This document shows, in pieces, positions 5,619 through 35,687 of a stretch of DNA of 64,000 bases; positions within the stretch are counted from its first letter, which is position 1, and every line of letters begins with the position of its first letter. This DNA comes from Tricholomella constricta (taxonomy: Eukaryota; Basidiomycota; Agaricomycetes; Agaricales; Lyophyllaceae): assembly GCA_013368375.1 (NCBI GenBank), contig JAACJP010000004.1, forward strand, positions 372,001-436,000, in the 5' to 3' direction. A program made the translations under genes and the position numbers. The notes under the pieces were generated by a model. The model worked only from the letters and a program-made list of their open reading frames with translations. It was not told where the DNA came from and made no database searches.

Positions 5619-5649
5619 TCAATCATGACATTTGACCTTGCACCTAGCT

Positions 5650-7490: not shown

Positions 7491-7495
7491 GACCA

Positions 7496-7508
7496 CGATG
7501 CCCACTAT
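7496..7508. repeat. LINE target-site duplication, left copy
   Basis: CGATGCCCACTAT directly abuts the LINE poly(A) end (poly-T on the plus strand) and recurs exactly at 28166-28178. Confidence 0.9.
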
Positions 7509-8326
7509 TTTTTTTTTTTTTTTTTTTTTTAATTCCATTACCCGTCGGGGCATTGCCCTATGGTGGGTTTACTATTTACAGACTGTATGTATGTGGTACC
7601 AACAAGTTTTCTGTCGTGACTTTGGATCCGTTCCCTTTGCGGGGTCGGGATCCGTGGTGTGAAGGCCTGGAAAAAGGCGTTAGTCCGTATTATGTCGGTG
7701 GCGACGTAGTAGTTGTGGAGAATTATGATGGATTATTGTATGTAGGGCGTTGTCCATGCGGTCCTTCTTTTGTTACTTCCGACCCGACCGTTTTTCGTTG
7801 TGCAACAGCATGTCTCCGAGCGCCTCTTCGAAACGTTTGGTGGCCGTGATGTATATGAAGAGTACCCGCACGGCTTTGGGATCGCTGAGTAGGGTCTGTA
7901 GAGCACTCGGTCCTGGCCTCACCACTTCGTGCATTTTTGCGCGGTGTCTCCTGTATGCTGTACACTCCAACAAAAAATGCTTCACCGTCTCGTCTCCCTG
8001 CTGGCATGCCTGGCATTGTGCTGAGTCGACCTTTTTGAATCGGAATAGATAGGCGTTTAGGGGGCAATGTCCCGTTCGGAGTTGGAAGAGTAGTGCTGCG
8101 TGTTTTCGTGGTAGGCCTTTCACCGTTTGATAGAACTTCCGCGACGGTAGGCTTGGGTCAATTGCCTTCATCCTCTCGTATCTCGGCGATTTCGTGAACG
8201 CTTCGTGTGCCTCTCTTTTCAGCATCTGTTTCTGTCTCCGTACGATGGCCGCTTTGCTGACTGGCAGTGGGGCTGCTAAGCTGGATATGCCAATGCCTCT
8301 GGTCTCCTTCCCTTCCGCTGCCCTTT

Positions 8327-9569
8327 CATCAGGAAAAATAGTTCTGGTCCGTAACACACAGCCAAGATCTGGAGCTGCTGTAGATGGACGGCTTGTAGGT
8401 ACCACTCTGTAGCTGTGATAGTGGTCTGTAGCTTTCACCATTGGTATGTAGACCTCGGGAGCTTACACTTGCCATATGTATAGGTCTCAATCAATACATT
8501 CTTTGAGCGGATGATACACTACTAGTACAGTGCAGATGCTGTGCACCAACTCGTGCAGGTGAAAAATATTGCACCAGGAGAGAAATGAACACTCAGTCTC
8601 ACTTCAAAGTAAATGTCAAACATGGTTGTAACAACCACTGCACCACAACATCCTTGATATACAGCCTCACCTGCACAACCTAATCACGTCCGGCACTGGC
8701 CTTGGACGCAAAAAAGTTTTTGAAGGTGCTTTCAAACTCCGCCCGAGTCCACCCGCATTCAGTCTGTCGTCGTAGCATCCTCCCTCTCACTCCCTCCCTC
8801 CGTTTCGAAGTTTCTGCTCCTGTCTTTCTGTTATTGACAGTGGGTGCTTTGTGATCAGTTTCTGATGACCATGATGTTGGTCCCACCCTGTGGCACAAGC
8901 ACCTCTATAGAGCCCTTATTTTGTGCTTTCCATTTTTTTTTCTGCATGCGCCTTTGAGTCTAGATCCTATGGTGTTCAGGTGAGTTTTCGGTTTTTTCTC
9001 TTATTCCACCCTTGAGCTGAGATGCCTTATGTAGATGAAGACTTTTGTGGAGACTGGACAGAGGCCGGGCCACTTTTGAGGAGAGGGAGCAAGTGTCAAG
9101 GTGAGAATTGGAGGTGTTGTTCATCTGCAGTAAGTCCAGAACTGTCTTCTAATTGATCTATGCTAATGCTAATGCAGCAATAGCTTCCCATCTTAAGATC
9201 ATCCCTTCCCCCCTTCCTTTCCCTACCTTCCACCTATCTTTGCCCACCACTTGCAGCATATTTTCTTCGAGATGGCCATTTGAACCCGGTTGGTGCTCTG
9301 GAGGATTTAGATAGTTTAGATTTGTGTTTTAACTACTTTGAATACACTTTATTTGATTTCGGAATGTTTTTATGTGAGACTATGAACTGTATATAATTCC
9401 TATAGCTCTCGTAGCTGTGGTGTTACAGACATCTATGGAGAGCTACGCAGGAGCTACGGGAGCTTGGCTGGTAGCTACGGACTATTACCTAAAGGGGACT
9501 TGGGTCCGCGAAGTTCACGAGGTACCAAAGCTCCGTACCTCTATGGAGTCATGTCAATTTTTCCTGATG
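8327..9569. mobile_element. 1.24-kb non-autonomous TIR element inside the LINE
   Basis: Perfect 13-bp terminal inverted repeats, CATCAGGAAAAAT at 8327-8339 and its complement at 9557-9569, bound a segment with no transposase-like frame. Removing it with 2 bp of flank joins the LINE ORF2 as ADKEAK-RAAEGKETRG in frame, which supports insertion with a 2-bp duplication. The next bases also allow a 3-bp AAA reading, but that breaks frame. Both ends carry repeated GTAGCT/AGCTAC sub-terminal motifs (8355-8430 and 9405-9480), and a C/T-rich tract lies at 9205-9240. Superfamily not assigned. Confidence 0.75.
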
Positions 9570-9760
9570 TTTCGCCTCTTTGTCCGCTCTTTCGTTTCCG
9601 GGAATGCCTTCATGTGCTGGTGTCCAGTAGATCTGTATTTGCCGTTCTCCTCTCGTTCGCGATATCCTCTCTATCCCTTCCACCACTCGGTCGACCAGGT
9701 ATCGGCCTGTTCCCGGTCCTGGGTTCATCAATGCTTGCATGCCTGCTTGATTGTCGGTTC

Positions 9761-9765
9761 CCACT
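9761..9765. repeat. Gypsy target-site duplication, left copy (CCACT)
   Basis: CCACT precedes the left LTR and the same pentamer follows the right LTR at 22896-22900. Removing the element plus one copy rejoins the LINE RNase H as RTATV-GTDNQAG in frame. Confidence 0.93.
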
Positions 9766-9985
9766 TGTAAGGACACCCACTATCTTATCTAATCTTGGTT
9801 ATCTAATCGTATCTTATCGAGACGATTACGCTATTGTTTGGCAACACCTTCTGGTGTTGCCTATTTAATTCATTACATTAATTAAGTATAAACAACCTTG
9901 TACACCTATACGTAGCAATCGACAGACTTGTCAAGCTTACGTCTAGTGTGAACAACAAGGTCCCAAATTCTGTAACCCCGTTACA
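9766..9985 (+). repeat. Left LTR of gypsy element (220 bp)
   Basis: It begins TGTAAGGACA and ends CCCGTTACA. It differs from the right LTR only at 9775 (A versus G at 22685). It contains a 9-bp stem-loop, GGCAACACC/GGTGTTGCC, with a 4-nt loop at 9840-9861. Confidence 0.96.
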
Positions 9986-10094
9986 TTTTTTTAAGCTACC
10001 TTGCTTTCTATTGCTGCGTACCCACGACGTTACGCAGACCCACATTCCATTTAGAACACCCATCATCAAAAAGAACCAACGAGACCGAGACCCG

Positions 10095-11072
10095 ATGACA
10101 ACAACTCCCACATCCGGAAAGAGCCGAACTCCGGTCCTCGAGGATGCGCTCACAGCGCATCCTCCATCACAACTTCCACTGCAACCAGTGGAAGTCGGAT
10201 CAGTCGCTGGTGGACAAAGTTCACCAGCGCAGAATACACTAGGAGTAGAATCGGAGGAACTTTGGCCAATAGCAAGCACCAATGTGCCTGGGAGCTTGGC
10301 CGACGAATTGGCCAGGTCACATCGACCTGGCCCCACGGCGGGAAGCAGATGGCCAGACAGCCGTCTGTCGAATAGAGCGTTCGGGGCGTCCACCCTGAGC
10401 ATAATCAAGATGGAGTCGGACGAAGACGACTTGTCCGACCCCGAGGCTAATGAAGAAGAGGCCAGCGAAAGGGAACTGCTTGCGCTTCAAGTGAAGCAAT
10501 TCTGGGACACCACCGATGTGGTTAGCGAGCATCGGCGAAGGCGACTGGAGGAACGAGCGGATAGGCTCGTTCTGCGATCTACCGGAGCACAATCCGTTGG
10601 AGAAATGGTCGCACAAGCATATGCCGACCGATACTTGGAAGCGCTGTCCGTAGTAGTTACGGAATACAGGAAGAAGTACCCTAAGGGAACTTCGAATTCA
10701 GCAGTCAGCTCGATCGCTGGGACGCCTGTACCTAAGAAAGCCTCGTTCAACAAAGGAAAAGGTCGTTGGGATGACCTCTTCACTCCTCAAGCAGTGGCTG
10801 CCGGATCGAACCAGCCTCTTGATGAGGCTGCCATGGCAGTATCGGCGCTGCATCAAGCGCGACAGTTAGGAGAATCTGACGACGATTATCGTCGTCGGTC
10901 TGCGGCAGCGAAGCGCGAAAGAATGACTCGTGAAGAGCATCTTGCGCAACCACAGGGATCCAAATGGGCCCCTGTTAGTGAGTCTACGTTAGACCCACCC
11001 ACGGAACGTAAGTATACAACCACGCAAGCAGCTGGCGACGAAAGCGCTGTCAGTTCACACCAAGCTTTATGA
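10095..11072 (+). CDS. Gypsy element ORF1, unrecognised protein (325 aa)
   Basis: The frame starts at ATG 10095 (MTTTPTSGKSRTP) and ends at TGA 11070-11072. The frame is also open upstream into the LTR, but without an ATG. The N-terminal 90 residues are Pro/Ser/Thr-rich. The middle is acidic (ESDEDDLSDPEANEEEASE), followed by a basic helical stretch (EHRRRRLEERADRLVLR) and a second helical region before a disordered tail. No zinc knuckle, protease, transmembrane segment or signal peptide is visible. It lies between the left LTR and gag, where gypsy elements normally have only a leader. A Gag-accessory or structural role is possible but not shown. Its DNA shows the dense small inverted repeats typical of the element (arms 10142-10150/10154-10162 and 10173-10180/10187-10194). 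Confidence 0.7.
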   Translation: MTTTPTSGKSRTPVLEDALTAHPPSQLPLQPVEVGSVAGGQSSPAQNTLGVESEELWPIASTNVPGSLADELARSHRPGPTAGSRWPDSRLSNRAFGASTLSIIKMESDEDDLSDPEANEEEASERELLALQVKQFWDTTDVVSEHRRRRLEERADRLVLRSTGAQSVGEMVAQAYADRYLEALSVVVTEYRKKYPKGTSNSAVSSIAGTPVPKKASFNKGKGRWDDLFTPQAVAAGSNQPLDEAAMAVSALHQARQLGESDDDYRRRSAAAKRERMTREEHLAQPQGSKWAPVSESTLDPPTERKYTTTQAAGDESAVSSHQAL

Positions 11073-11379
11073 AAAAGTTCAGTGTCCAGGCTCAACCGGA
11101 AGCTATTATATGCGACAGGAAGGTCACCTGGTGTTCGTTGGGGAATCCTTCCAGATACGATTACCTAGGAGTGGGTTAGTTTATTATCTGGTCTAGAGAT
11201 GGGTGGTTAGTCAATTGTCTTTGTTGAAGAAATATATCTCAACAATGTTTAAGACAATGAGCAGCTGTGGAGTAGATCGTTAGTGACAGTGATGAGGGTC
11301 GTAGATAGTCGTGATAGATGTCGTGGATAGTCGTGATAGATGTTGTGAATGTGTCGTTGAAGATACTACGTGTATATGA

Positions 11380-11600
11380 TGACTTGATATACGATGGCTT
11401 GATATATGATAACTTGATTAGACTTGACTTAACTTGACTTGACTGACTTGTGTATATATAATGACTTGAATAACCTTGACTTGACTTGACTTGACTTGAC
11501 TGGCAGATGTATACGATAACTTGAATAGACTTGACGGTAACTTGACTGACTTGCAGATATATACGATGACTTGAATGGACTTGACGATGACGAAGGCTTC
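11380..11600 (+). repeat. (ACTTG)n-like microsatellite in the element leader
   Basis: Runs of TTGACTTGACTTGACT and related ATATACGATGACTTGAATAG units repeat several times. The stretch encodes nothing and belongs to the internal non-coding leader of the gypsy element. Confidence 0.8.
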
Positions 11601-11689
11601 CTGATGACAAAAGATAGAATATAGGTCAGTAATAAATGTAATCAACTAACTGATAGTTGATTAATACGAGAAACAATGACGAAATAAAT

Positions 11690-12085
11690 CTAACAAGGTT
11701 GCTCACTGTCTCTTACAGTGACGAACAAGCTTGAGAGATATGGACGATGACGAACACTAGTCTCAATCACACTCTTCTGGGCACTGCCAGGCTCGAGTAG
11801 ATATATACTAGACTTGACGAAGAATACCGAGTTTGCTCACTGTTGTGGACAGTGACGAACAAACTAATTATCAACTTGCTCACTGTTTCGTACAGTGACG
11901 GACAAGATTGACAGACAAGAACGACAGACTAGCTCACTTCGCAACTCTTCTGGGCACTGCCAGGCTCGAGCAGGAATTCCACTAGACTGAAACTGACTTT
12001 CTGGTTTGCTCACTGTTGGCGACAGTGACGAACAAACCAAACTACCAAGTTGCTCACTGTATCTTACAGTGACGAACAACCTTTG
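11690..12085 (+). repeat. Repeated stem-loop units in the element leader
   Basis: At least four units of the type TTGCTCACTGT-(5-9 nt)-ACAGTGACGAACAA occur, at about 11698-11728, 11832-11862, 11876-11906 and 12004-12077. Each can fold on itself. A second recurring block, TCTTCTGGGCACTGCCAGGCTCGAG in form, occurs at about 11767 and 11947. Function unknown. Confidence 0.8.
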
Positions 12086-12269
12086 GTAGACAGAAGCAAC
12101 AGTGAATCAACTAAGATTACTGCCTTGGTCAACAATATGACCAATGGGGGGTGAGTGCAGGCTGTATATTGGATGAAACCACTGTTATACCACACCAGAC
12201 TGGGGGGAATACTCAATTTCCTCTCCCTTATATACATTTTGGCTACCTACGCTTACTAAGCATTGATGC

Positions 12270-12860
12270 AGTACAATGAGTCATGTAGAGTCATATATTG
12301 TAAGTGAAGGAGTCAGAATGAGTCAGGGTGAGTCAGAATGTGTATTTATAGAAAGTAATGAGTCAGGATGAGTCAGAGCATATTTATAGAAATATAATGA
12401 GTCAGATGTTATAAATAAACAGCCTTGACTGTAAATGAGTCATCCTGATGCAATCTATGAGTCAGATTACATGTGTAGAGTTAAAAATAGAATGGTAATG
12501 AGTCAAGTGTTATAATGACTGTAAATGAGTCATCTAGATGCAATCCATGAGTCAGATCACATGTAGAGGGTTAATTATAGAACACTTGAGTCAGATTGTC
12601 AGAATGGAGTCATATAGACATGAGTCATGTTAAGATATGGGTTATATTTAGCACACTTGAGTCAGAATGTCAGATTTGGGTCATGTAGGCAGATGAGTCA
12701 TGTGGGGGTGTGAGTCATGCTGTCATATGAGTCATGCTTACATAAATGTCATGTGGAGCATGTGGACCATCCTGACATATGAGTCATAAAGGTGCAATGA
12801 GTCATGAGCTGCATATGAGTCATAATGACGAAACGAGTCATATGGATCCAATCAGTCAAG
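12270..12860 (+). promoter_or_regulatory. Array of about twenty TGAGTCA (AP-1/Gcn4-type) motifs
   Basis: TGAGTCA, usually as ATGAGTCAT/G, recurs about every 25-30 bp, with several one-base variants. TGA(C/G)TCA is the known binding site of fungal Gcn4/Cpc1 and metazoan AP-1 bZIP factors. The array lies within the element, between ORF1 and gag. Binding and enhancer activity are inferred, not shown. Confidence 0.65.
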
Positions 12861-12889
12861 TTCAGGAGTTATGACTAAGCTGAGGTCAT

Positions 12890-13110
12890 CTGACTTGTCC
12901 TTAGGATTACAGAATCATCAGAATGATGGAGTTAACCATTGCGCCATGTGGGCTGCTTAGTAATCTCTTATGATTATAAAGTTTTGCACCAGGCCGGGAT
13001 TGAAGCAAGGTCAAAAGTGCCAAAGCAGTAGGTGCAATTTAACCACTGAGCCATTGGGCTGTTTGTGACAAGCTAGACTTTAAACTGTTTATAAGGCAGG
13101 GATTGAACTG
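12890..13110 (-). repeat. tRNA-like relics (A-box/B-box) in the element leader
   Basis: On the minus strand, A-box-like TGGCTCAGTGG (13053-13043) pairs with B-box-like GCTTCAATCCC (13006-12996) at tRNA-like spacing. A second A-box TGGCGCAATGG (12946-12936) and another B-box AGTTCAATCCC (13109-13099) flank it. The acceptor stems do not pair, so these are not functional tRNA genes. They look like degraded tRNA- or SINE-derived pieces captured by the element. Confidence 0.5.
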
Positions 13111-13227
13111 GTGTTATAAAATATAAGACCTTTCTTTAGAGTGATCAATTCGACTGAGTGGGCTTTTTATGTCACTTTGTCTGAAACACTTTTCAGGCGT
13201 GACAGCGCGCCAGCTATTCAAGTACCT

Positions 13228-15336
13228 ATGGATGCGAAGGATGGCCGTGTTCCATTAGCGAAAGATTGGAACAACCGAGTCGCATATCAGCGTTTGAGAA
13301 ACGCTGATTTATCACGGAGCAAGTTCACGAATTATGATGATCAAGGAGTCGTCTTCGAAGGACATATGCCCGTAGATGAGATGGCGAGGCAATGGGCCTC
13401 GCAAACTCAAGGTTCGGATGGTGGACTGGGAAATGGGGCCGTCGGAAAACATAATACGACGGCGACGGCTAACAGCCGTCAAGACATGCGGGTTCGTATA
13501 AATGAACCCACTTCACACGCTCAGCCTCGATTTCAAAGTCGAGGCTACTCAATGCCTGACCCGATTCGCAGGAGTCAATCAATTGCGGACGGAATATATG
13601 CTGCTGGAGAGCAGCATAAAACTAAGATGCACGAACGGTTGCATCAACTGATACACGAGCGACTGGCTGTACGCCTATCGCTCCCTGATGGTATGAAATC
13701 TCGCCGTGCGGACTCAAAGTCCGTAGGCACTTATAGTGGAAGCGCCAAGTTTGGCGAATTGGAAGAATGGCTAGCCAGCCTTGTCGTGATGCTAGCCGTG
13801 AGCCAGTTTGGAGGAGCAGAACGCGACCAAGAGCGCGTTCTGATAACATCTGAGTTCCTTGATGGTGAAGCTCGGAAATGGTACAATCGCCATGTTATCC
13901 ATGTGAACCGCGAAAAGCAGTCCTGGACGTTTGAAGACGTCATACTAGGGCTGTACGATCGGTTCGTGCTGCCTTCAACCATGCAGGATGCTCGTAACGA
14001 CTTTAACGCCGTTACCTATTCGGCGAGCAAAGGCATACAAGGTCTGTATGACGACCTTGTGGATCATGCCATGAACATGGCAGCAAGAACGGATGATTGG
14101 ACGTTCCTGGAGAAATTTCTCAAAACACTTCCGCGCGATATGCGGAAGGCATTATTCGATGACGGGCTATCACCCGAAATCAATACAGCCCAAGAGTTCC
14201 TAGCGGTGGGCCTAGCACTTCAAGCCACCCAGAAAACGGCTGATTACTTTGAGCGGACCATAACCGCTCAGCGAAGTCAACCGAGCCAAATGCGGAAACC
14301 AGATGGAGGGCGAGTAAACGCTCCACACAATACTTTCAACAGGCCTCGACGGGTGTATGGCGCAGTAAATGAAAAGCCATATGTCAAGCCAGCGTATCAG
14401 GATCAACCTGGACGTGGAGAGCAAAAGCCCCACGTCGAAAAACCAGCGATGAAGACAGGAGATCGTCCGCGTTACGATCAACCTAAAAACCACGATCATC
14501 ACAACCATCCTCCGGGGGAAGTGTGCTTTAATTGTGGAAAACTAGGGCATTTTGCAAAAGATTGCAAACAGCCCAAGAAACAGCGAGCGTTCCTAAGGGC
14601 CGCACGTACAGCGGCACCTGACGCGGCAAGTGAGGCGGACGATGAAGACACGTCTCCTGAGGACCCGGACGGACGAGACAATGGACGCCCTGATACAGAG
14701 GCGGACAATGAAGACGAAGGCGATGAGTTCGTAGACATGGAGGTCTACGAAAATGAATACTATGCTCGGGACGATGAGACCGAGCGTATGTTTGCAATGA
14801 CAGAAGTAATTGCGTCAGAAGAACGCAATGATAAACCATCAGTTCGCAAAGTTAAAGTGCGGACGGGGAGGGACAAAATTGCTCGTCCCGTAGTTCTGAT
14901 AAAGGACAAGGAGTGCCTTGTCACCTACATTAACGTAGGTGGACATGAGGCTTGGACCCTTTGGGATTCCGGGAGTACAACTACCGGACTTACGCCGTCA
15001 TTCGCTCAAGTGGCCGATATTCGAGTATTTCCGCTGGAGGATCCATTAATCCTCCAGCTCGGGACTAAAGGAAGTCGGGCCACAGTAAACTTTGGTACGA
15101 CGGTGGAAGCCGCTCTGCCAGGGTTTAAAGGCAAGGTTTACATGGACCTTGCTAACTTTGATCGATACGACGTGATTATAGGCACGCCGTTTATGCGCGC
15201 AAATAACGTCGTGCTGGACTTTAACCGTGACGAAGTGGTCGTCAATGGAGTCGCTATACCAGCGACTAAGGTAAAAATGGAGGATACCGATGGCCGAGCT
15301 AGACGCCATCGGTCATTGGAGAAACGAAGAGAATGA
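13228..15336 (+). CDS. Gypsy Gag-protease polyprotein
   Basis: The first ATG of the frame is at 13228 (MDAKDGRVPLAKDW), giving 702 residues to UGA 15334-15336. Gag core helices span about residues 140-370 (ACKWYNR-like region GEARKWYNRHV; FVLPSTMQDARNDF). A CCHC knuckle, CFNCGKLGHFAKDC, is at 14524-14565. A Glu/Asp-rich linker follows, then a retropepsin with WDSGSTTTG (Asp codon 14965) and DVIIGTPFMRANNVVLDF. The active site is DSG rather than DTG, as in many gypsy elements. The product forms particles and matures the polyprotein. Pol lies in the same frame beyond the stop, so Pol is probably made as a Gag-Pol readthrough fusion. The DNA is dense in small inverted repeats, for example 13523-13530/13539-13546. 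Confidence 0.92.
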   Translation: MDAKDGRVPLAKDWNNRVAYQRLRNADLSRSKFTNYDDQGVVFEGHMPVDEMARQWASQTQGSDGGLGNGAVGKHNTTATANSRQDMRVRINEPTSHAQPRFQSRGYSMPDPIRRSQSIADGIYAAGEQHKTKMHERLHQLIHERLAVRLSLPDGMKSRRADSKSVGTYSGSAKFGELEEWLASLVVMLAVSQFGGAERDQERVLITSEFLDGEARKWYNRHVIHVNREKQSWTFEDVILGLYDRFVLPSTMQDARNDFNAVTYSASKGIQGLYDDLVDHAMNMAARTDDWTFLEKFLKTLPRDMRKALFDDGLSPEINTAQEFLAVGLALQATQKTADYFERTITAQRSQPSQMRKPDGGRVNAPHNTFNRPRRVYGAVNEKPYVKPAYQDQPGRGEQKPHVEKPAMKTGDRPRYDQPKNHDHHNHPPGEVCFNCGKLGHFAKDCKQPKKQRAFLRAARTAAPDAASEADDEDTSPEDPDGRDNGRPDTEADNEDEGDEFVDMEVYENEYYARDDETERMFAMTEVIASEERNDKPSVRKVKVRTGRDKIARPVVLIKDKECLVTYINVGGHEAWTLWDSGSTTTGLTPSFAQVADIRVFPLEDPLILQLGTKGSRATVNFGTTVEAALPGFKGKVYMDLANFDRYDVIIGTPFMRANNVVLDFNRDEVVVNGVAIPATKVKMEDTDGRARRHRSLEKRRE

Positions 15337-15339
15337 CTA
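15334..15339 (+). promoter_or_regulatory. Putative UGA-CUA stop-codon readthrough site between Gag and Pol
   Basis: The Gag frame ends GAA-UGA-CUA-AAA. UGA followed by CUA is a known leaky termination context in several viruses and cellular genes. The same frame stays open for 118 codons up to the first Pol ATG (15691) and on to 19236. A 7-bp stem-loop (15379-15385/15395-15401) lies 42 nt downstream. Confidence 0.7.
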
Positions 15340-18300
15340 AAAGTAACAGTAGAAGATGACGATGATCCTGATAATGAGGGTAGGCCGATAAACAGCCTAC
15401 CGGAGGATCATCCAGCACTTTTATTATCCGAGGAAGAGTTTCAAGAAACTCTTAAGGAGGGGGATAAGCCACCTCCGAAGAAGAGAAAACCCCAACGACG
15501 ACAGCAGAAGGCACAAAACGAGCCTTCGAACGAACGAGCACAGGTTGACGAGCCATGCGAAGAACATCAGCGCGATAATGAAGCGCGTAAGACGAGCGGG
15601 GCCGACAAGGATACGGAATCAGAGCCGTATACGAATACGAGTAATCGATCATTTTGGGATAGACCAAATCCACATCCACAATATGAGTGGATGTTCGACC
15701 CACGGATGCCGCAAGAATGGAACGCAGTAATAGCGTCAATGCGGGCTCACGAAGGAAGAAATGTAGGCACGCGAGGACAAGCGTACCGAAATCCACGGCC
15801 TGAGGAAGTATCGGAGCCAACGGAAATGAATTTTCCGGTGAATATACAACGGGCTAAACGGCCGTTGTATCGGTTACCAGTGAAGGATGAGAGTGACTTT
15901 GCTCTCGTAAAACTACGAGCTAGGTTTGATGTTAAACCTAGCAATAAAGACACAGCGCACATTCGCGCTGCAAGAACGGTGAACAGAAAAGGTAAGGCAC
16001 CCAATGGAGGCCTTACCGCGGAAGATTATCCACGACTTCGCCAGCAATGGCATGACGAATTCGAAGATATGGTGGGTGGTACGAAACAACAGCTACCACC
16101 CTGGCGGGAAGTCAATCACGAGATTACTCTCATCGATGATGAGAAACAGTACCAGTACCACGCGCCGAGGTGCCCAATGTCCCTTCGCGAGGAATTCTAC
16201 GCGAAGGTCAATCGGTATACGGATTCTAAATGGTGGGAGCCTCGTTCGGTGAAGCAAGCAGCGCCGCTGCTATGTATCCCGAAAAAAGACGGCTCCCTGA
16301 GAACACCCTTGGACGCACGCCAGCGTAACGATAACACGATCAAGGACGTTACGCCCTTGCCAGACCAGGAAGTTATTCGCGAAGATGTCGCTAGGGGAAA
16401 AATACGGTCCAAAATTGACTTAACGGATGCGTATGAACAAGTACGCATCCTTGAAAAAGATGTACATAAAACCGCCTTCGCAACGATAGCAGGAACATAC
16501 ATCAGTAACATCATGCAAATCGGGGACTGTAATGCTCCCGCGACATTTCAACGATTAATGACATCCATCTTTCGGGACGTCATTGGGAAGTTCATGCATG
16601 TATACTTGGACGATATATTCATATTCTCGAACTCTATTGAGGAACATGAAGACCACTTGCGAGTTGTGTTCGAACGATTACGCGAACAATCGCTCTACCT
16701 TAAATGGAAGAAATGCGAATTGTATTCGGATCGCGTTGATTGCCTTGGTCATATTATTGACGACCAAGGAATTCACCCTGACGCCGACAAACTGGCACGG
16801 ATCCGTGACTGGAGGATACCACGGAATTACAACGATATCCAACGATTCGTTGGACTTGTTAACTATCTGGGACAGTTTCTCCCAGATATATCTGCATACA
16901 CTGGTCCACTAATGGCGATGACCGAGAATGGGTCGCCATTTTATTGGAGACCAATTCATCAGCGATGCTTTGAAATGATAAAGCATATATGTTGCACAAC
17001 TCCAATTATTCGGCCGATTCAACCGAAGACAGGCGAACCAATTTGGATTATCTGTGACGCCTCCAAGTCAGGCGTCGGTGCGATGTATGGACAAGGACCT
17101 ACATGGATCCAAGCCCAGCCGGCTGGATTCATGTCCAAAAAATTCACTAATGCACAGCAGAATTATGCTGTGCATGAACTCGAGACCTTAGCTATTCTCG
17201 AAGCGTTACTTAAGTGGGAGGATAAACTTGTGGGCTATAAAATCCACATCATTACCGACCATAAAGCCCTCGAATTCTTTAAGACCCAGGTGAATTTATC
17301 ACCTAGGCAGCGTCGATGGATGGAATACATGTCGCGATTTAACTTCGACATAACCTATGTGAAAGGCGAACTGAACAAAGTCGCCGACTGTCTATCGCGA
17401 TACTTCGAGAGCGATAACCATCAAGATCGTTACGACGTCCACGACTTCGTAGCTGCTGATGCTAGAATCGATCCTACTGGTGAAGATCTACCAGTACCAC
17501 GATACCATGAAATCGTGGAAAAAGTAGTTGAGATTCGAGCGATGAAAGACGTAGAAATACGTCGAAGCAAGCGTCTTCAAGAACGCCAGGAGGATCGAGA
17601 TGTCGAGGCTCAGATAATGGAGGCTGCGGCACCAAGTACCGCATCCGGAACATCGTCACACCCTCAGAAAAGCATGAGTCCAACCGAACGGGAACGTACG
17701 GTCGGAGATATTGTCCTCGGGAGGGACACAGCTTCCCCTCCCCCAGACAAAACGGATGAAAAGATCCGTCACGACGTTATCCTTGGATACCCAAAGGATA
17801 AACTATTTTCAGTTATTCTCGCTAACCCCAGGGACTTTCGTACGTTCACCACGAAAGACAATCTCATTTGGACCACGAACGCTATAAATGATAGCGTTCT
17901 ATGTATACCGCGAGAACCCGAGCTCATCACCACAATTATTGAGCAAGCCCATAAAACTATGGGCCATTTCGGTGCTGAACGGACTACTGAATATATTCGA
18001 CGATGGTATTGGTGGCCATCACTAGCCACGACCGTGCGTACGTTTTGTAAAACGTGCGAGTACTGCCAGCAGATCAAGACGTCGAATCAAAAACCGTCAG
18101 GGAAACTACACTCCCTGCCAGTACCAACTAAGCCTTGGGATTCTATCGGAATGGACTTTATCGGTCCATTTCCAGAATCAAAGGGATATAATTACCTATG
18201 GGTAGTAATTTGTCGTATGACGAGTATGGTGCATATGATACCCATACATACGACGATGACAGCAGCCCAATTATCATGGGTATACTTATGGGAGATCGTC

Positions 18301-19236
18301 AGGCTCCATGGCCTGCCAAGCTCGATCGTAAGCGATCGAGACTCTAAGTTTACTTCACGCTGGTGGCGCGAACTACATAAGTTATTAGGAGCTAAGCTCC
18401 TAATGTCGACATCTTTCCATCCTCAGACGGATGGACAAACGGAGCGAGCCAATCGTAGTATTGGCCAGATATTTCGTGCCGTTGTGAGGCATGACCAAAA
18501 GGATTGGGTAGATTGTATACCCATGGCTGAGTTCGCGATAAATGCGAGCGTATCGGCTACTACCAAGTTCGCTCCATTTGAGCTGAATAGTGGATACATG
18601 CCGTCCATGTTGAAAGAGATACGCTCAGACAGCGTAATACCGAAGGGAATTCGAGAGTATGCGGAACGCGCATTGCAGAATATAGCGGAGGCGCATGACG
18701 CTATAATCGAAGCGCGCGTATTTCAAACGCGCGAGGCAAACAGGCGCCGATCCGCTGGTCCAGAAATAAAGGGGGGAGACTTGGTGTATTTATCCACCAA
18801 GAACTTGAACCTCCCCAAGGGACGCGCCCGTAAATTGTGCCCGAAATTCGTCGGGCCCTACAAAGTGCTGAAGGCCATGCCAGACACGTCGAACTATACG
18901 TTGGAATTACCTACGGCACTCATGGAGCGCCGGATACATCCAACATTTCATATATCGATGTTGCGCCCATACTACGCAACGAATGATACAATGTTCCCTA
19001 ATAGAACTCATCCGGAGCCCTACGATTTTGGGGCGCCGGATAATCACGAATGGTTTGTAGAAGATATTTTGGGCCATAGATGGACCCAAAATAATACTGT
19101 GGAATATCAGGTTAGGTGGAGCCTGGGAGACACCACCTGGGAACCGCACACCAATTGTAACAAGTTAGCGGCACTGGATCGCTACTTGGAACTACAAGAG
19201 GTGAAGAGCGCGTCGAGATTACCGCGACGAACCTAG
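15337..19236 (+). CDS. Gypsy Pol: RT-RNase H-integrase-chromodomain (readthrough extension of Gag)
   Basis: The frame is continuous with Gag after the UGA; the first in-frame ATG is 15691 (1,181 residues if initiated there). RT: KIDLTDAYEQV, NAPATFQRLM and the YLDD box near 16600-16614. RNase H: CDASKSGVGAMYG (Asp codon 17055), HELETLAILEAL, ITDHKAL. Integrase: HHCC finger (H...GHFGAERT, CKTCEYC) and D,D35E core (GMDFIGPF at 18147; VSDRDSKFTS; HPQTDGQTERANRS). C-terminal chromodomain, about 19040-19200 (WFVEDILGHRW, EYQVRWSLGDTTWEPHTNC), which in chromoviruses targets integration to chromatin marks. The stop is TAG 19234-19236. All catalytic residues are present, so the element may be competent. 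Confidence 0.95.
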   Translation, partial: LKVTVEDDDDPDNEGRPINSLPEDHPALLLSEEEFQETLKEGDKPPPKKRKPQRRQQKAQNEPSNERAQVDEPCEEHQRDNEARKTSGADKDTESEPYTNTSNRSFWDRPNPHPQYEWMFDPRMPQEWNAVIASMRAHEGRNVGTRGQAYRNPRPEEVSEPTEMNFPVNIQRAKRPLYRLPVKDESDFALVKLRARFDVKPSNKDTAHIRAARTVNRKGKAPNGGLTAEDYPRLRQQWHDEFEDMVGGTKQQLPPWREVNHEITLIDDEKQYQYHAPRCPMSLREEFYAKVNRYTDSKWWEPRSVKQAAPLLCIPKKDGSLRTPLDARQRNDNTIKDVTPLPDQEVIREDVARGKIRSKIDLTDAYEQVRILEKDVHKTAFATIAGTYISNIMQIGDCNAPATFQRLMTSIFRDVIGKFMHVYLDDIFIFSNSIEEHEDHLRVVFERLREQSLYLKWKKCELYSDRVDCLGHIIDDQGIHPDADKLARIRDWRIPRNYNDIQRFVGLVNYLGQFLPDISAYTGPLMAMTENGSPFYWRPIHQRCFEMIKHICCTTPIIRPIQPKTGEPIWIICDASKSGVGAMYGQGPTWIQAQPAGFMSKKFTNAQQNYAVHELETLAILEALLKWEDKLVGYKIHIITDHKALEFFKTQVNLSPRQRRWMEYMSRFNFDITYVKGELNKVADCLSRYFESDNHQDRYDVHDFVAADARIDPTGEDLPVPRYHEIVEKVVEIRAMKDVEIRRSKRLQERQEDRDVEAQIMEAAAPSTASGTSSHPQKSMSPTERERTVGDIVLGRDTASPPPDKTDEKIRHDVILGYPKDKLFSVILANPRDFRTFTTKDNLIWTTNAINDSVLCIPREPELITTIIEQAHKTMGHFGAERTTEYIRRWYWWPSLATTVRTFCKTCEYCQQIKTSNQKPSGKLHSLPVPTKPWDSIGMDFIGPFPESKGYNYLWVVICRMTSMVHMIPIHTTMTAAQLSWVYLWEIVRLHGLPSSIVSDRDSKFTSRWWRELHKLLGAKLLMSTSFHPQTDGQTERANRSIGQIFRAVVRHDQKDWVDCIPMAEFAINASVSATTKFAPFELNSGYMPSMLKEIRSDSVIPKGIREYAERALQNIAEAHDAIIEARVFQTREANRRRSAGPEIKGGDLVYLSTKNLNLPKGRARKLCPKFVGPYKVLKAMPDTSNYTLELPTALMERRIHPTFHISMLRPYYATNDTMFPNRTHPEPYDFGAPDNHEWFVEDILGHRWTQNNTVEYQVRWSLGDTTWEPHTNCNKLAALDRYLELQEVKSASRLPRRT

Positions 19237-19364
19237 AATGTGGCGCGGTCATGTGACCACGGCGATCAAGAAAATTACATAACCATCAAAAGTTATGACA
19301 GAAGGTTAAATATGTTTGGCGCTAGACGCGCAACCGATTTTCAACCCTCTCAACACAAACCAAC

Positions 19365-22319
19365 ATGTACCCCAGCCAAGTACCAACCTCCAGCAACGAC
19401 GCGATTCGGGGCGGCGACAGCCGCACCGACCAGCAAAATTTGAACCCGGGGCCGAGTTCAAGTGGGGAGGGAGCGCAGGGGCGCGCGGAAAATGCGCCCC
19501 TGCCCCCAACTTACATGGGCTCGCAGCCCCAATTATACCAATATCCTCCGGTTGGCCATATGAGCCAACCGCCCCATCAGGGGCAACAAACATTTCCGAC
19601 GGTTGGCCATATGAGCCAACCGCACCACCAAGGGCAACAACCACCTATGGGTGGTTTTTACCCGCCAGGGCTGGCATTCCAACAGATGCCATCAATGGCG
19701 GGTTTCATGGGGTACTCGCAACCGACGTGGTACCCCCAAATGCCCATGCAGCCTGTACCGCACAATACGCGGTACAACGAATCGGAGAAGATGGAGGTAG
19801 ACGACCAAAGTCGTCTGCAAGCAAATGTCCCGCCGGCGCAAGTGGTGCGCGGCGAACCGGTGCGGCAACATGTTGCACCGAATGCAGACGACAAAGCGTC
19901 GTCGGCGTCGAGTTCACGGAGGATGGCAGACGATCGTAGAGTATCGCCTGCGTCAAGTTCGAGGAGACCATTCGCAGACGATGGTCTCCTTTCTTCTCTC
20001 TTGGATCGATTGGAAGACGCGGGTATTCACCGCGAATTTTGTGATTTCTTGGACGATGGAATGGCGCAGCTGGTTATAACCCAGCTGCTTGATGCATACG
20101 ATGGAGCTTGCGCGGATTTGAGACGCGTGAAAGCGAGAGAAGCGGCCATGGCTGAGCAACTCAGCCTGGCAAGAAAACGGCCGGCAGTAGCATCGCCGGA
20201 TCGCGGGGAGGGACCATCGTCCCGACCCATAAAAAGGCAGCAAATGGAGGTGCGTCGAGAAGAACGCACCTCATACGAGCCGCGACGACAAGAGAGGAGC
20301 GAGCCCAGGCGTCCGGAACGACGCCTGGAACAGGAGAATCGGCGGTACAACCGCCACCCCGACCAGGAAGTGTGGCGTGACGAACGCCCACTTGATTATG
20401 GTTCTCAACGGGAAGAGCGCCGAGAGGATCAAGGGACGCGCGAAGTGCGCCCCTTACCTGCTCGAGAAATCGAGCGCACGGCGTCGACATCGTCGACGTC
20501 AGCGGAAGCAAAGCCGCAAAACCTATCCGGAGCGTTACCGCCCCCGGGAGAAAGCCGGGTGCGGAACCCAGAACGAGGTTCTCAGAAGAAGGAACCTGTT
20601 GGCAAATATACTTTGCCAGCGCCAGCCCCTGCACCACCTAGTACGATGGTGCAGCCCCCAACGCCGCCATCCAAAGGCAAACAGAAGGCATCGGATCCAT
20701 ATGCCGAGGCTATGGATGAATCGGACTGGGGCGAGTCGTCTGACGACGACAAGCCTGTCAGCAAGAAGAAGGCTGCCGGGCAAAAGCAGCATCGCGAGAA
20801 TATGGCTCGCAAAGCTGAGAAGGAGATGCCGGGGCGGATCCCTGACGAGCTCGGGGTGGTCTTCATCAACGACCGCCACGAGAGGGACAACCGTTTTTGG
20901 GATATGCTAGTGCGGACGATATATGTATCGTCCGCCCAGAATCGTGCCTACGCACTAGGCACCGCAGCGCGAGTGTCCGAAAGCGAGTTGGGGACGGGAC
21001 ACAATTCTCGTCCCCCATCGGGACGGCTATATGCCGTCGCACCACGCGGGTTCCCAATGAACCCTCGTGAAGTTGATCAGTTGTATGCACTGATCAACGA
21101 TCGGCGCCCCGGCGTGACGGATGAAGAGCGGGCAGAGGCCTTTATGCTCTTTAGGGAGTTCCGGCGAGTCTCCCTCTCGGTAGCGCCCCATTTGCGCGAC
21201 CGATCCATGGCTCGAGCAGCCATGGATGAATTTAGAAGCGTCAACCGACCGTTCGATACACGGTCACCCATTTGGCAGGCCGCGCCAATTAGGCGGCCTG
21301 GGAGGGCATTCGAATATAGGCCGGACAAGCCTACACGAGGCGCTGGCCTGCCTCAGCCAGGCCCCGACCATGCCCTCGATGTCGAGCACTGGTGCCGACA
21401 TATGATTCACCATGGGCGTATTGGTTCAAAGAACCAATACGGAGGAATCGTCATGGACTACCGGTTCCGCGTACATAGGCGCGGAACTTGGGGATACTTG
21501 TTGGCGAATGTACTAGCGCCAACTACCCACAGCATGCGGTCATGGTTCATGCGACTTTTCGCGACCATTACTGCGCGGCCATACCTCTACGCAGAGGCTG
21601 TGGCTGCCTATAACGAGGCCAACCCAGATCGGCCTTTCACACCGATCGAAGGCCCTGAGGTTACCATACCTCGCATCCAAGTGATCCCTCCGGAGGTGCG
21701 GATCACTGAACAAGGTGTCTTGCAACACCTTATCAACATTGGTATTCCAGTAAGCTGGATACACCATAGCTACACTTATGGTCTACATTATTTGGACCAT
21801 AACTACTCTAACTCAGGTCCCTATAAGGACCTGTTCCGCAATGTTGACGACGATCGAGTTCGTCGTCTAGATGAAATGGGTGTTCCGCCCGCCATCCCTG
21901 AGTGGGATGGGTGGTACCATCCCACCACCGACGACATCACGCGCATCCAAACACTGATGCACGTGGAATTCCAGACCGAACCACTAGACTGTCTAGTGAG
22001 TTCGGAATGGATGTTTGTGGGTGAAGACCCACACTTCCGAGGACTCCGTGTTCGGGTGGGGGAATATCTCCCCCCAGGCCTGCATCACCCAGCTTCATCG
22101 GGATCGACGTCCATCAACGTCGAAATGGCGGACCCGGCGGCAGCTATACCTGCCCCCGCGACACCCTCCACAGTCGTGGCAGCTCCAACTGGAGCTACCG
22201 AAACCCAAGTGGACCCCGTGTCGGCCCTTACAGGGCCTTTATCACTGGCGGTGATTACCACCAGCCAGGGTCTGGTGGACAACAACACCACCGACCCCGA
22301 CACAGTGATGGAGTCATAG
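19365..22319 (+). CDS. Gypsy element ORF4, unrecognised 984-aa protein downstream of integrase
   Basis: The complete frame from ATG 19365 to TAG 22317-22319 begins 128 bp after Pol. Residues 1-150 are Pro/Gln/Met-rich with a duplicated VGHMSQPxHQGQQ unit. Residues 180-480 are charged and probably disordered, with Arg/Glu-rich tracts. Residues 490-900 look folded, with conserved-type aromatic motifs (NRFWDMLVRTIYVSS, TWGYLLANVLAP, WIHHSYTYGLHYLDHNY). A low-complexity tail ends it. There is no signal peptide, transmembrane helix or fusion peptide, so it is not an obvious envelope; there is no zinc knuckle either. It occupies the env position of the element and shares its inverted-repeat texture (for example 19550-19556/19564-19570), so it evolves with the element. 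Function unknown. Confidence 0.8.
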   Translation: MYPSQVPTSSNDAIRGGDSRTDQQNLNPGPSSSGEGAQGRAENAPLPPTYMGSQPQLYQYPPVGHMSQPPHQGQQTFPTVGHMSQPHHQGQQPPMGGFYPPGLAFQQMPSMAGFMGYSQPTWYPQMPMQPVPHNTRYNESEKMEVDDQSRLQANVPPAQVVRGEPVRQHVAPNADDKASSASSSRRMADDRRVSPASSSRRPFADDGLLSSLLDRLEDAGIHREFCDFLDDGMAQLVITQLLDAYDGACADLRRVKAREAAMAEQLSLARKRPAVASPDRGEGPSSRPIKRQQMEVRREERTSYEPRRQERSEPRRPERRLEQENRRYNRHPDQEVWRDERPLDYGSQREERREDQGTREVRPLPAREIERTASTSSTSAEAKPQNLSGALPPPGESRVRNPERGSQKKEPVGKYTLPAPAPAPPSTMVQPPTPPSKGKQKASDPYAEAMDESDWGESSDDDKPVSKKKAAGQKQHRENMARKAEKEMPGRIPDELGVVFINDRHERDNRFWDMLVRTIYVSSAQNRAYALGTAARVSESELGTGHNSRPPSGRLYAVAPRGFPMNPREVDQLYALINDRRPGVTDEERAEAFMLFREFRRVSLSVAPHLRDRSMARAAMDEFRSVNRPFDTRSPIWQAAPIRRPGRAFEYRPDKPTRGAGLPQPGPDHALDVEHWCRHMIHHGRIGSKNQYGGIVMDYRFRVHRRGTWGYLLANVLAPTTHSMRSWFMRLFATITARPYLYAEAVAAYNEANPDRPFTPIEGPEVTIPRIQVIPPEVRITEQGVLQHLINIGIPVSWIHHSYTYGLHYLDHNYSNSGPYKDLFRNVDDDRVRRLDEMGVPPAIPEWDGWYHPTTDDITRIQTLMHVEFQTEPLDCLVSSEWMFVGEDPHFRGLRVRVGEYLPPGLHHPASSGSTSINVEMADPAAAIPAPATPSTVVAAPTGATETQVDPVSALTGPLSLAVITTSQGLVDNNTTDPDTVMES

Positions 22320-22675
22320 GTCGGGGAGACAACTTAATCCCCCCGTCAACGAACCGACCTCGACACGTAGGGCGTACCGCCGGGCCGACCGCCATTGTCA
22401 GGTGCAGACCACCTGACTCCCGAGGAGCAATCCGCAGGTTGCGTATTAACGCAACATTGGATGTCCTCACCACCATTCTTTGCCGCACGGCACTTTGAGG
22501 CCGTGCAGTGGCGCTAATGCATCCACTACTCGTTAAGTCAAGAATACGTATTTTACCTACGTATTCTTGCATTATTTGATAGGTCTAGGTCGCCGGGACC
22601 TAGACCCTCCTTTTACTCTCTTTTTCTGCCCAACTCCCTGGTGAAGATCGCTACACGCGATCTTAAAGGGGGGTA
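22320..22675 (+). other. Element 3' non-coding region with polypurine tract
   Basis: No coding frame. The purine tract AAAGGGGGG at 22665-22673, two bases before the right LTR, is the expected plus-strand primer. Stem-loops continue here, including a 10-bp AAGAATACGT/ACGTATTCTT hairpin around 22540-22567. Confidence 0.85.
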
Positions 22676-22895
22676 TGTAAGGACGCCCACTATCTTATCT
22701 AATCTTGGTTATCTAATCGTATCTTATCGAGACGATTACGCTATTGTTTGGCAACACCTTCTGGTGTTGCCTATTTAATTCATTACATTAATTAAGTATA
22801 AACAACCTTGTACACCTATACGTAGCAATCGACAGACTTGTCAAGCTTACGTCTAGTGTGAACAACAAGGTCCCAAATTCTGTAACCCCGTTACA
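22676..22895 (+). repeat. Right LTR of gypsy element (220 bp)
   Basis: Identical to 9766-9985 except one base (22685 G). It ends ...GTTACA and is followed by the CCACT duplication at 22896-22900. Confidence 0.96.
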
Positions 22896-25800
22896 CCACT
22901 GTCGCCGTTCGTATGCCCAGTTCCCTCCGTATAAGTTCCATCCCCAGTATTTGACCCACGCACTCTCCTTCGAATACTGTGTGTTCCTTCTCCGTCCCCA
23001 GGAGTTTGCGTAAGACCTTTGGTTGTCGAAATCCTCTGTACAGCACCGCCGCCGCTCCCACTTTCCCTTTGTACCCCGATCCATCCGTGTACACTCTGAC
23101 ATCTGCATCGTTCTCCTTTCTCTTTCCATTGCCGCCTCTTTTCTCGCATCTATCACCACTTTCACTGGACATTCCCATTCGGGCGGCTTCCTCACCACAT
23201 CGATCGTCTCCACTTTCTTCCTCCTCACATCGACTCCTAGGGTGCTCATGACATAGTGCAAAGGCGCCCTGTGCCTCTTCACAAGCTTTGCCGCCTTCTG
23301 GGCTGGTCCGCGTATCGGGTGTTCCGGGGGTAGGGCGGCTATTCGCGCTGCAGACCTTGCACATATCTTTCGGATTTGCGTCGCCATTGGTAGGAGGTCT
23401 GCGTGGATGTTCAGGGTGTCGTTTGGTGTGGTCCGGTACCCGCCTAAGATCTGTATGGCCGCCGTCCTCTGTACCCTCGCTAGCTTCGTGACAAAACCCC
23501 GCGATCCTTTCACGATTGCCCCTGTCTTTGTTTTGATGTCCGGAGTGCACCACACGTCCGCGGCATATAGCATGCTGGGTATCACCACGGCCTGGTAGAG
23601 CTGTCTTGCGAACCCGTTGCGCATCCCCCCGTTCGTTTTGGCCAGGCGCTTCATCTGGCTGACCCATGATGCTCCCTTCCCTACCGCGTGCGCGACGTGC
23701 TCGTGGAATCTGAGCTCTTGGTCTAGGATGACTCCTAGGAATTTGTGGGTGCTTTTTGTCTTGATTTGCTGCCCTGCGATGGTGATGTTCGGCCTAGCTG
23801 CCGGTATCCGTCTCCTCGGGTTTTCGGGGTCTGCTTCTTTTCTCCTCGAGAACCCCATGCACGCGAATTTGTGTACCTCGTATAAGGAGAAGTGCCGCTC
23901 CGCCCATTCCTGTCCTCCTCCTTCCCTTCCCATCATATCCACTACCTTCCGTGCCGCTTCCTCCATGTCCTCCCCGCTCGCTGCAAAGATCGTGTCATCC
24001 GCCCATGCTGTCGCCAATTCGCCATCTCCCCGCCTCGCTCCTTCTATCTGGCTTGCGCTGTAAAAGTTGTAACACATCCCCGAGGTGTTGCAACCCTGGT
24101 CGAGTCCGCTGTTGACTGGAATTCGCTCGGACTTGTAGTCATCGAAGGATATCACTGTTTCCCTCCGCTCTAGCTTGTTCTCGAACCACTGCACCACTAT
24201 CTCTGGTACCCCCTTCCTCCTCATGTCGTGGGCTAGGACTCTTGGCACCGTGTTGGGAAATGCCCCCTTCACATCCAGAAAGAGCGCTACGACCTCGTGT
24301 CCCTTCCGCCATGCGTCCTTGATGAACGTCATGAGGAGGTGCAGCGAGTCTGTGGTGGCCCTTCCCGGTCTTCCCCCGAACTGCATCTTCGGCAACATGT
24401 TCGTCTTCTCCGCATAGTACGTGAGCCTATTCTTTACGCACGATGACAGTACCTTTGCGATGGTGTCCAGAAGCGCAATAGGTCGGTACGCGTTCGGTGT
24501 GCTGTAGTCATCCTTCCCTGTCTTCCTCAGTACCGCCGTATTGAAGACCTTCCACTTCTTTGGGTAGACTCCGATCGCGAACGTTGCCCTGTATATTGGG
24601 CCCAAGAAAGGTATGATGACGTCCTTTGTCTTGGTGAGTACTACGTTGGGGATACCGCTGAGGCCGTGCGCTTTGAATGGATTTAGTTTGCTGATGGCCC
24701 TCCGTATCTCTGTGTCGGTGATTGGGGTCCATGCGAATTTTTCCCCGGGGTATACAGTGTCCTCGGGGATGTTCGTGACCTCCGGCGGCTCATAAAAGAA
24801 AGCTTGATGGAACAGCTTCGCTTTCCCTTCGTTGTCCTGCACCTCCCTCGTTTCCCCCCCCTCCTCTTCCACCTTCAGCGCTGGTATTCTCGTCCTCCCT
24901 CCATCTGTCGGTGGTGCCGTAATGAACTTGTTGGCGTCCCATACGCTTCTCGCGTGGATCTCCTCTAGCCAAGCCCTCCAGAACGCCTTCTTCGTGTCTT
25001 TGATCATCTGCCCGTAGTCGTTCCGTGCTTTCCTGTACCTTTCGTGTGCTGGATGCCCCCCGATGTCTTGTCTTTCCCATGAGTCCCTCCCTAATCTCTT
25101 GACCGTCCGCCGCGCGTCTGTCAGCTCCCTCGACCACCATCTCTTCATATGCGGCGACTGTTTTTTCTCCGGTACCTTGCTCTCTATGGTCTTCTGGAGG
25201 GCTCCCACCAGTTCGTCCAGCCTCTCGTTCAATTCCTCCTCTGTCGTGATCTCCCCCGTCGCTTTCCCCTCCATCCTTCGTTCCACTTCCTCTCCAAACT
25301 TTGCCCAGTCCACCTCCCGGAAGTTCCTCCCTTTCACCACCTCCGCCCTTTTCGTCTCCACATTTATGACCGTCTGGATCGGGAAGTGGTCCGTTTTTGG
25401 AGGTGCATCTTCCGGGATTACTCGACATTCATCCACTGCATGTTCGAGCCCTCCCGATACGAATACATTGTCCGGTCTTGTCAGATTCCCTGTTCCAAAG
25501 GCTCTCAGTGTGGGAGTGCCAGCCGGTAACGCCATCTCCATCCCGTATTCTGCCACCAATTCCAGTAGTTCCTCCGCTGCCTCGGTGTTCGCCCTCGTGA
25601 ATAGATGACAATTCCTCTCTTCATCCCACATCTCGTGATGCCTGTTGAAGTCTCCCGCCCACACGTCTTCGTTTCCTCCACCTCCCGTCCTCCTTCCCTC
25701 CCCGCTGTTTAGGTAGTTCCTCATGGTGTTTGTGCTCCTGTTGTGTGTGCAATCATTGTAAATGCAAAATATCCTGAGCGATCCCCGTTCCGTTTTTATG

Positions 25801-26131
25801 TGTATGGCCGCGACGTCTGGGCTGTCGACGTTTAGCCTCGTCCATGCGTCTGTTGCGATGTTCCGGTTCACTAGTATGAGGGCCCTCGTTCTTTCTGGGT
25901 GGTCTGGGTTGTGGGCTTTCGGGTAGACTGGTATCCATCTCTGGTTCGCTCTCGACTTTTTGTTGAAGTCGAAGTGGGGTTCCTGTATGCAGATGATGTT
26001 GTGTTTGTCGCTGAGTGAGTTTAGCATCGCATGTTGCGCCGTTAGGGACTTGTTCAGGTTCTGCTGCCATATTGTGAGTCTTGTCGCCCTCCTCGTTCCT
26101 CCTCTGCCTCCGTTTCCTTCGTCTTCGCCAT

Positions 26132-35054: not shown

Positions 35055-35687
35055 CGAAAATCAGGACCACTTTTTTTGTATATATGGAGAGAGAGAGAGA
35101 GGGTTTGGTTTGCATACGTGTATTGGGGGTTGTACTGAGAAAGGTCAGCACGCGGGTCTTGTACAATGTTGCCCATGCGATCTGGTCTGCCGTCGCGGGC
35201 AGATGAACGCCATCCGAGGGAAACCATTGCAGGAGATCATGGCCGCACGGGTGGCTTGGATTGGGGAGTCCTGCGATGGTCATGGCGGCTGCGACCTAAG
35301 GCGCGTTGGAACACCTAATATCGTTGCGCGTCACGCGACGCGTCTCGGGTGACCACACCAAAAATACATATCTACCCAGGGTAATTAATATCCCAACTGC
35401 AGAACGATAAACGATAAAATACACTCGTGTCCAAGGACGTCGTCGCTGCCTCCCATCCTCTTCGAGTCATCGGCGCCTATCACAAAAACATCACATATAT
35501 GCGGCATATATTGGCACAAATGCATAAATATCATTCTCAAGCTTATCGCGGTAATAACTAGTTACATTGTACACGGTACTCTGACCCACTAATATCACAC
35601 ACAATATATAGAAAAGGAGCGGGGGCGGAGACGAGTAAACAGAGAAGATATAAAGAAAAAAAAAAGCTGTAGCGTCTCCAGGAGCGT
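35055..35687. other. Intergenic region between Mug135-like gene and H3
   Basis: It may include an unmodelled first exon of the Mug135-like gene (minus, about 35283-35130), a GA microsatellite (35087-35102) and A-rich 3' sequence beyond the H3 stop. No other gene seen. Confidence 0.5.

Follow-up and report, generated by a model that had tools for sequence, protein, structure and literature searches.

Hairpin saturation of a Ty3/gypsy retrotransposon of Tricholomella constricta and probable selection for local folding of its genomic RNA

Positive-strand RNA viruses can show genome-scale ordered RNA structure (GORS), which the accessible part of PMC7642675 describes as raised MFED over the whole genome together with numerous consecutive small stem-loops whose pairings are poorly conserved among relatives; the retrotransposon described here was found to resemble it in these traits. 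The MFED given in the same part of that paper is 7.5-10.7% for HCV, about 15% for SARS-CoV-2 and 23.4% for the highest coronavirus. GORS is associated with the persistence of animal RNA viruses, and its purpose is hard to isolate there. A second likeness is found in the mitochondrial genomes of Nematomorpha, where the portion of PMC6649704 at hand describes perfect inverted repeats in protein genes that were gained and lost among relatives. The Ty1 RNA of yeast is likewise an LTR-retrotransposon RNA with a mapped structure and some well-structured regions (PMC9503155, available sections), and PMC10760457, as far as its accessible part goes, treats local structures in the genes and transposons of maize. 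Basidiomycete Ty3/gypsy elements contain the same Pol domain set, and many of their proteins were found to be homologs with 51-74% identity. A literature search at the level of titles and listings revealed no account of an LTR retrotransposon saturated with hairpins.

The window, that is the whole stretch of 64,000 nucleotides that was analysed, was found to contain a hairpin-saturated Ty3/gypsy retrotransposon (family A) at 9766..22895 on the plus strand, as seen from its LTRs, target duplication, Pol domains and hairpins. The element was flanked by a 5-bp CCACT duplication (9761-9765 and 22896-22900). The 5′ LTR (9766..9985, plus strand) and the 3′ LTR (22676..22895, plus strand) contained 220 bases each with TGT...ACA ends, differed from each other at 1 of 220 bases, and contained the hairpins 9840-9848/9853-9861 and 22750-22758/22763-22771, respectively. 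The plus-strand Gag frame was found in two parts, both with many hairpins, at 10095..11047 and 13201..15336, the latter of which contained a CCHC zinc knuckle and ended in TGA. It was followed by the Pol frame at 15337..19236 on the plus strand, which also contained many hairpins and in which the domains were arranged in the order RT, RNase H and integrase (Pfam: RVT_1 at 196-356, RNase H at 449-550, H2C2 at 743-797 and rve at 814-911), together with SH3_Tf2-1 and a weak chromodomain match (PF00385, 19.5 bits, below the cut-off of 25.1). The region 15337-15690 had been considered as non-coding, and this was dropped because the Pol frame is open there and is similar to the N-terminal part of Pol homologs. 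The Gag stop TGA occupies 15334-15336 and Pol goes on in the same frame with no further start required; judged by the sequence, a stop read-through arrangement is possible at this junction. The plus-strand ORF4 at 19365..22319 (984 aa) contained no Pfam domain, an Arg-rich stretch and the highest hairpin density (32 hairpins), followed by the presence of a non-coding stretch of 356 bases with 6 hairpins upstream of the 3′ LTR (22320..22675, plus strand).

The Gag frame was found to be interrupted by about 11048-13200, which the copies L005 and L007 lacked, as did the family B copy L055. On this comparison, the segment is read as a later, foreign insertion of about 2.15 kb, lying outside the saturated element and serving as an internal negative control for hairpins. 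Since the insertion breaks the Gag frame, the original prediction had listed a separate ORF1, which is in fact the front of the Gag frame. The insertion contained 7 hairpins, five of which were one repeated unit (TCACTGT/ACAGTGA), so the saturation that had been claimed for the whole of 9766..22895 held for the coding and non-coding parts of the element and failed in the insertion. Many GAGTCA-like repeats were also observed in it, and its flanks overlapped by 8 bases at the joint. Despite the few hairpins, its MFED was 11.4%, above the other controls, perhaps from its own repeats.

LINE-type ORFs (endonuclease, RT) on the minus strand at 22788-27982 were hairpin-poor and extended into the 3′ LTR, so that the element probably lies within the end of a LINE. 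The same LTR was observed three times in C4 (335453, 358609 and 381766), each time with an upstream flank and a front part that were identical or nearly so, at spacings of 23,156-23,157 bases. This concerns the region 1-13,485 of the window and represents either a triplication in tandem or an artefact of the assembly.

With arms of at least 7 bp and loops of 0-10 bases, the 13,130 bases of the element were found to contain 101 hairpins, against 17 in the rest of the window (50,870 bases), or 7.7 versus 0.33 per kb; with arms of at least 9 bp, the counts were 32 and 0. When the insertion was left out, 94 hairpins were contained in 10,978 bases (8.56 per kb, or roughly one per hundred bases), at a similar density in coding (85 in 9,944 bases, 8.55 per kb) and non-coding sequence (8 in 813 bases, 9.84 per kb). 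In 60 synonymous-codon shuffles per ORF (loops of 1-10, arms of at least 7), the mean was 0.6 (maximum 2) for the former ORF1, 1.2 (maximum 4) for Gag, 1.8 (maximum 6) for Pol and 1.6 (maximum 5) for ORF4, against 7, 18, 25 and 32 hairpins actually present. Among the control ORFs, two LINE ORFs contained 1 and 0 hairpins and three host ORFs 0, 0 and 1.

The original prediction, made by eye, was largely borne out by these counts. It had noticed more than two dozen hairpins, a number far surpassed by the full scan, and had expected a density beyond codon shuffles and host genes without saturation, both of which were found. Its chance rate of about one 8-bp hairpin per 10 kb agreed with the 6 hairpins with arms of at least 8 bp in the 50.9 kb outside the element. 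All ten of the arm pairs that it quoted were exact reverse complements, including the hairpin at 18384..18404 on the plus strand (arms of 10 bp, loop of 1 base). The positions were correct and some arms proved longer than quoted, for example 10140-10150/10154-10164 with 11 bp; the range of 7-10 bp was too narrow, as arms reached 12 bp in the longest perfect hairpin (22539..22569, plus strand, loop of 7 bases). Outside the element, one kilobase (35001-36000) in hairpin-poor surroundings contained three hairpins with arms of at least 7 bp, two of them with at least 8.

The stems were mostly of 6-10 bp and the loops mostly of 3-12 bases. With stems of at least 6 bp and loops of 3-12, family A without the insertion contained 153 hairpins, covering 3,338 of 10,978 bases. 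The stem excess in A was found at 5 to 10 bp and was absent at 4 bp (244 versus 240 expected), and the chance of stem continuation dropped to 0.23 past 10 bp, as estimated from few cases. Stems never exceeded 12 bp, the non-coding parts included, and stopped abruptly, with pairing past the stem ends of 0.19-0.36 per position, near chance. The loop excess in A was found at about 2 to 12. When A, B, D and E were pooled, the loops peaked at 5-8 with a tail beyond 12, and the values were 8-11 for loops of 13-16 and 11-12 for loops of 0-2 against a background of 4.25; the sharp loop limit of 12 seen in A was thus softer after pooling. Third-to-third codon position pairing was found in 22 of 94 hairpins and in 39 of 108 control stems. 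No common arm sequence or outstanding loop motif was found in 99 loops, only A/T-rich words, and none of 4227 known RNA families matched at gathering score. An origin of the hairpins as mobile inserts was rejected, as the arms were unlike each other and a repeat search at 40 bases yielded a single hairpin unit repeated in the insertion and, in ORF4, a single tandem pair of 51 bases (19541-19642).

The relatives were examined in one genome, where they form about three independent lineages (A/B/F, D/G and E), with mainly Pol covered for D, G, E and F. All 30 Pol loci of family A (L009-L038 with flanks, from 39 scored matches) contained 52-60 hairpins each in about 6.5 kb (arms of at least 7, loops of 1-12). 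Family B was 93.8% identical to A in Pol DNA and 84% in ORF4, and family F was 86.5% identical in DNA. At the amino acid level, D and G showed 72 and 75% identity to A (D and G being 98.8% alike in DNA) and E showed 58%. The perfect hairpins per kb of Pol were 8.5 in A, 7.1 in B, 5.9 in F, 4.7 in E, 1.3 in G and 0.9 in D, with the Pol of D and G containing just 3 and 4; the 1.5 kb behind Pol contained 9 hairpins in D and 7 in E. For two Ty3 families that are unrelated (about 34% aa), the counts in 2.5 kb were 0 and 1. The trait tracks the clade of elements rather than their host. No relatives were found as DNA among viral and prokaryote contigs.

A, B, D and E each contained an Arg-rich or ORF4-like reading frame 3′ of Pol. 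The frame downstream of D Pol was a diverged ORF4 relative (best E 6e-12), and the one downstream of E Pol was Arg-rich with no detected similarity to the three searched ORF4 homologs. These three, all from Lyophyllum, were the ORF4 relatives among the 8000 candidates sharing most words; one of them is fused in a gene model with a tannase/feruloyl esterase. The search of the ORF4 profile against solved structures gave a single match, with E 0.15. From the Arg-rich stretch of ORF4 and the frames behind D and E Pol, an RNA-binding partner is possible.

The MFED, calculated in 350-base windows at steps of 175 bases with 12 dinucleotide shuffles, was found to be 20.5-30.2% by part in A, 21.8 in B, 21.5 in F, 20.3 in D, 18.9 in G and 23.4 in E, whereas the controls gave 2.3 and 2.6 (the unrelated Ty3 families L049 and L050), -3.0 (LINE), and 0.9 and 1.1 (host). 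The sequences of A, F, E, D and G were far stabler than their synonymous shuffles, which was not so for one host ORF and the LINE, and far stabler than dinucleotide shuffles in 120-base windows (A, F, E, D and G) and in 100-base windows (A, E, D and F). No folding excess against dinucleotide shuffles was found in L049, L050, the LINE and host sequence. Because the Pol of D and G contained few perfect hairpins, the saturation had been regarded as private to A, B, F and E; this was withdrawn, as the folding tests showed D and G to be over-structured too. The excess in A was spread over Gag, Pol, ORF4 and the non-coding parts. Windows without a perfect hairpin (arm of at least 6) were also over-structured, with a mean plus-strand z of -0.62 to -1.77 in the six families and -0.26 to +0.17 in five controls, where the standard errors are approximate as the windows overlap.

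Both strands of A were almost equally over-structured. Sense minus antisense folding over 170 windows of A, E and D was -0.68 kcal (se 0.26, p=0.014), with +0.03 in the controls; in A alone it was -0.45 (se 0.34), which is not significant, and F was slightly antisense-leaning. In the hairpin-free windows, the gain was larger for the sense strand in A, D, G, E and F and not in B. G-U pairs would help the sense strand if the sense RNA is selected. No preference for G-U pairs over A-C mismatches was found in perfect or near-perfect stems of A, B and F, and A-C was the commoner in A and B.

Arms were found to be conserved at synonymous sites between families of intermediate divergence. At four-fold sites of Pol, the differences between A and F numbered 13 among 97 arm sites, 8 among 24 loop sites and 129 among the other 303 (p=5e-8), the arms differing about three times less. 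The comparison F-A gave 5/70 in arms versus 137/336, A-B gave 8/114 versus 70/348, and ORF4 in A-B gave 21/136 versus 78/263. The hairpin pairs were retained at 0.892 between A and F versus 0.759 for chance stems with long loops, and at 0.850 versus 0.709 in ORF4 of A and B. Covariation of the arms among copies, proposed as a check in the original prediction, was found to be weak: in ORF4, 8 of 12 double changes restored the pair in hairpins and 12 of 26 in control stems.

In the older branches, the hairpins of A were kept no better than controls, which indicates that the positions were largely turned over while the degree of folding stayed high. Of 30 A hairpins, 27 had at most one broken pair in B, 22 in F and 2 in each of D and E, and the A pairs were kept at 0.459 in D (control 0.508) and 0.436 in E (control 0.431). 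In the opposite direction, 12 stems of D were somewhat better kept in A (0.597 versus 0.486) and the E stems slightly better (0.464 versus 0.424). The arms diverged from D more than the rest did (169/442 versus 957/2865, or 0.382 versus 0.334). This held for the first and second codon positions too (100/406 versus 306/1697), for which no excess was found against E (105/362 versus 461/1548). Residues common to at least 6 of 8 homologs had been replaced in 4 of 114 codons in arms versus 45 of 558 others; by this comparison, the hairpins were built where the protein permits.

Polymorphism among 24 recent copies was 40/912 in arms, 18/395 in loops and 275/5236 elsewhere, without a clear difference, and singletons over all 30 copies, with flanks partly misaligned, were somewhat commoner in arms. 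Weak conservation of arms in recent copies would be expected for mutations that arose after insertion. Outside the hairpins of the 24 copies, 36 T to C changes were observed with 18 A to G, and 82 C to T with 74 G to A.

The folding excess in six families, the constraint on the arms and the excess in hairpin-free windows together favour selection for a folded genomic RNA over a palindrome-perfecting reverse transcriptase, and the families probably form a clade of Ty3/gypsy elements in which selection keeps the genomic RNA locally folded almost everywhere. The original prediction had named such selection for a highly structured RNA genome as one cause, which the six families, the four-fold sites and the hairpin-free windows now support well. 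The excess also starts at stems of 5 bp and loops of 3, matching foldable hairpins. The lack of G-U preference, the non-significant strand difference in A, the slight antisense lean of F, the abrupt stem ends, the modest covariation, the unclear conservation of arms in recent copies and the MFED of 11.4% in the hairpin-poor insertion are points against it. A template-switching reverse transcriptase, likewise proposed in the original prediction, would let nascent cDNA snap back at quasi-palindromes and copy one arm from the other, so that the hairpins would be a by-product under purifying selection on the protein. It would account for the perfect, abruptly ending stems of A without G-U preference, for a trait that follows the element clade and for the greater divergence of the arms from D; moreover, a yeast precedent for arm homogenisation is given in the available part of PMC8604942, and homogenisation was suggested for nematomorph mitochondria in that of PMC6649704. 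However, it predicts an excess in perfect hairpins only and runs of changes confined to one arm, whereas hairpin-free windows are over-structured as well, as are D and G with their few perfect Pol hairpins; the stems stop at 12 bp even in non-coding parts, and left-right asymmetry of the arms was absent in 13 comparisons of modest power (e.g., A versus D, |L-R| of 39 versus a null of 41.3). As the main cause it is therefore unlikely, and it may have contributed to the perfect stems of A, B and F.

Two further readings place the selection elsewhere. The hairpins could be dispersed binding sites, or packaging signals, for Gag or for the Arg-rich ORF4 product, with recognition and not folding under selection; the zinc knuckle of Gag and the Arg-rich or ORF4-like frames of A, B, D and E fit this, but the variable stem and loop sizes and the absence of a common arm sequence or outstanding motif in 99 loops do not, and it is rated somewhat more improbable than template switching. 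Slightly less credence still is given to single-stranded cDNA being what is selected to fold, for example by protecting or pacing reverse transcription, which agrees with the near equality of the strands in A but not with the larger sense gain in D, G and E and in the hairpin-free windows of five of the six families. Chance, composition or codon bias has practically no probability, being ruled out by the synonymous and dinucleotide shuffles, the long-loop controls and the host DNA.

Under selection for a folded genomic RNA, the selected object would be the full-length sense RNA, in which single hairpins would be interchangeable and in which synonymous and weakly constrained codons would have been tuned to give stable stems no longer than about one helical turn. 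The putative use, by analogy with GORS in viruses, is most likely a compact RNA that offers little single-stranded target and no long duplex; such an RNA would hinder nucleases and the binding of guide RNAs while giving Dicer no substrate, and would be well suited to packing in the Gag particle. Among the functions suggested by this analogy, compaction for packaging combined with shielding from nucleases or from silencing, the latter being the third cause proposed in the original prediction, would rank first. A stronger version, in which the whole RNA genome is a chain of interchangeable hairpins that acts with the Arg-rich protein of the extra ORF as a genome-wide shielding or packaging system new for retroelements, is doubtful at present. 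As folded and ordinary Ty3 families are found side by side in one fungal genome, the function, whether silencing escape, RNA stability or packaging, would be directly testable here. The element also offers an extreme example of a single sequence that carries both a protein code and a structural one.

Compared with the described systems, the basidiomycete Ty3/gypsy homologs are known here as proteins, and the present clade would differ from them in its long extra ORF behind Pol and its folded genome. The Ty1 RNA contains 11 well-structured regions in about 19% of its length, and hairpin saturation is undescribed in the available sections of PMC9503155. The nematomorph repeats extend to 284 bp without an excess of imperfect repeats (PMC6649704, portion at hand), whereas the repeats found here are of at most 12 bp and far denser, with excess folding also where perfect repeats are absent (the hairpin-free windows, and D and G). 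In comparison with GORS, the stems here are often perfect in A, B, F and E, and synonymous sites in the arms show clear constraint among A, B and F. The MFED of 19-30% lies above the 7.5-17.5% of most viruses and reaches or passes the maximum of 23.4% in the accessible part of PMC7642675, the methods being close and not identical. The carrier is a fungal LTR retrotransposon with an integrase and not a positive-strand RNA virus, so that the clade is regarded as GORS-like in its working and is not filed as GORS; the evidence favours what would be a retrotransposon equivalent of the ordered RNA structure of those viruses.
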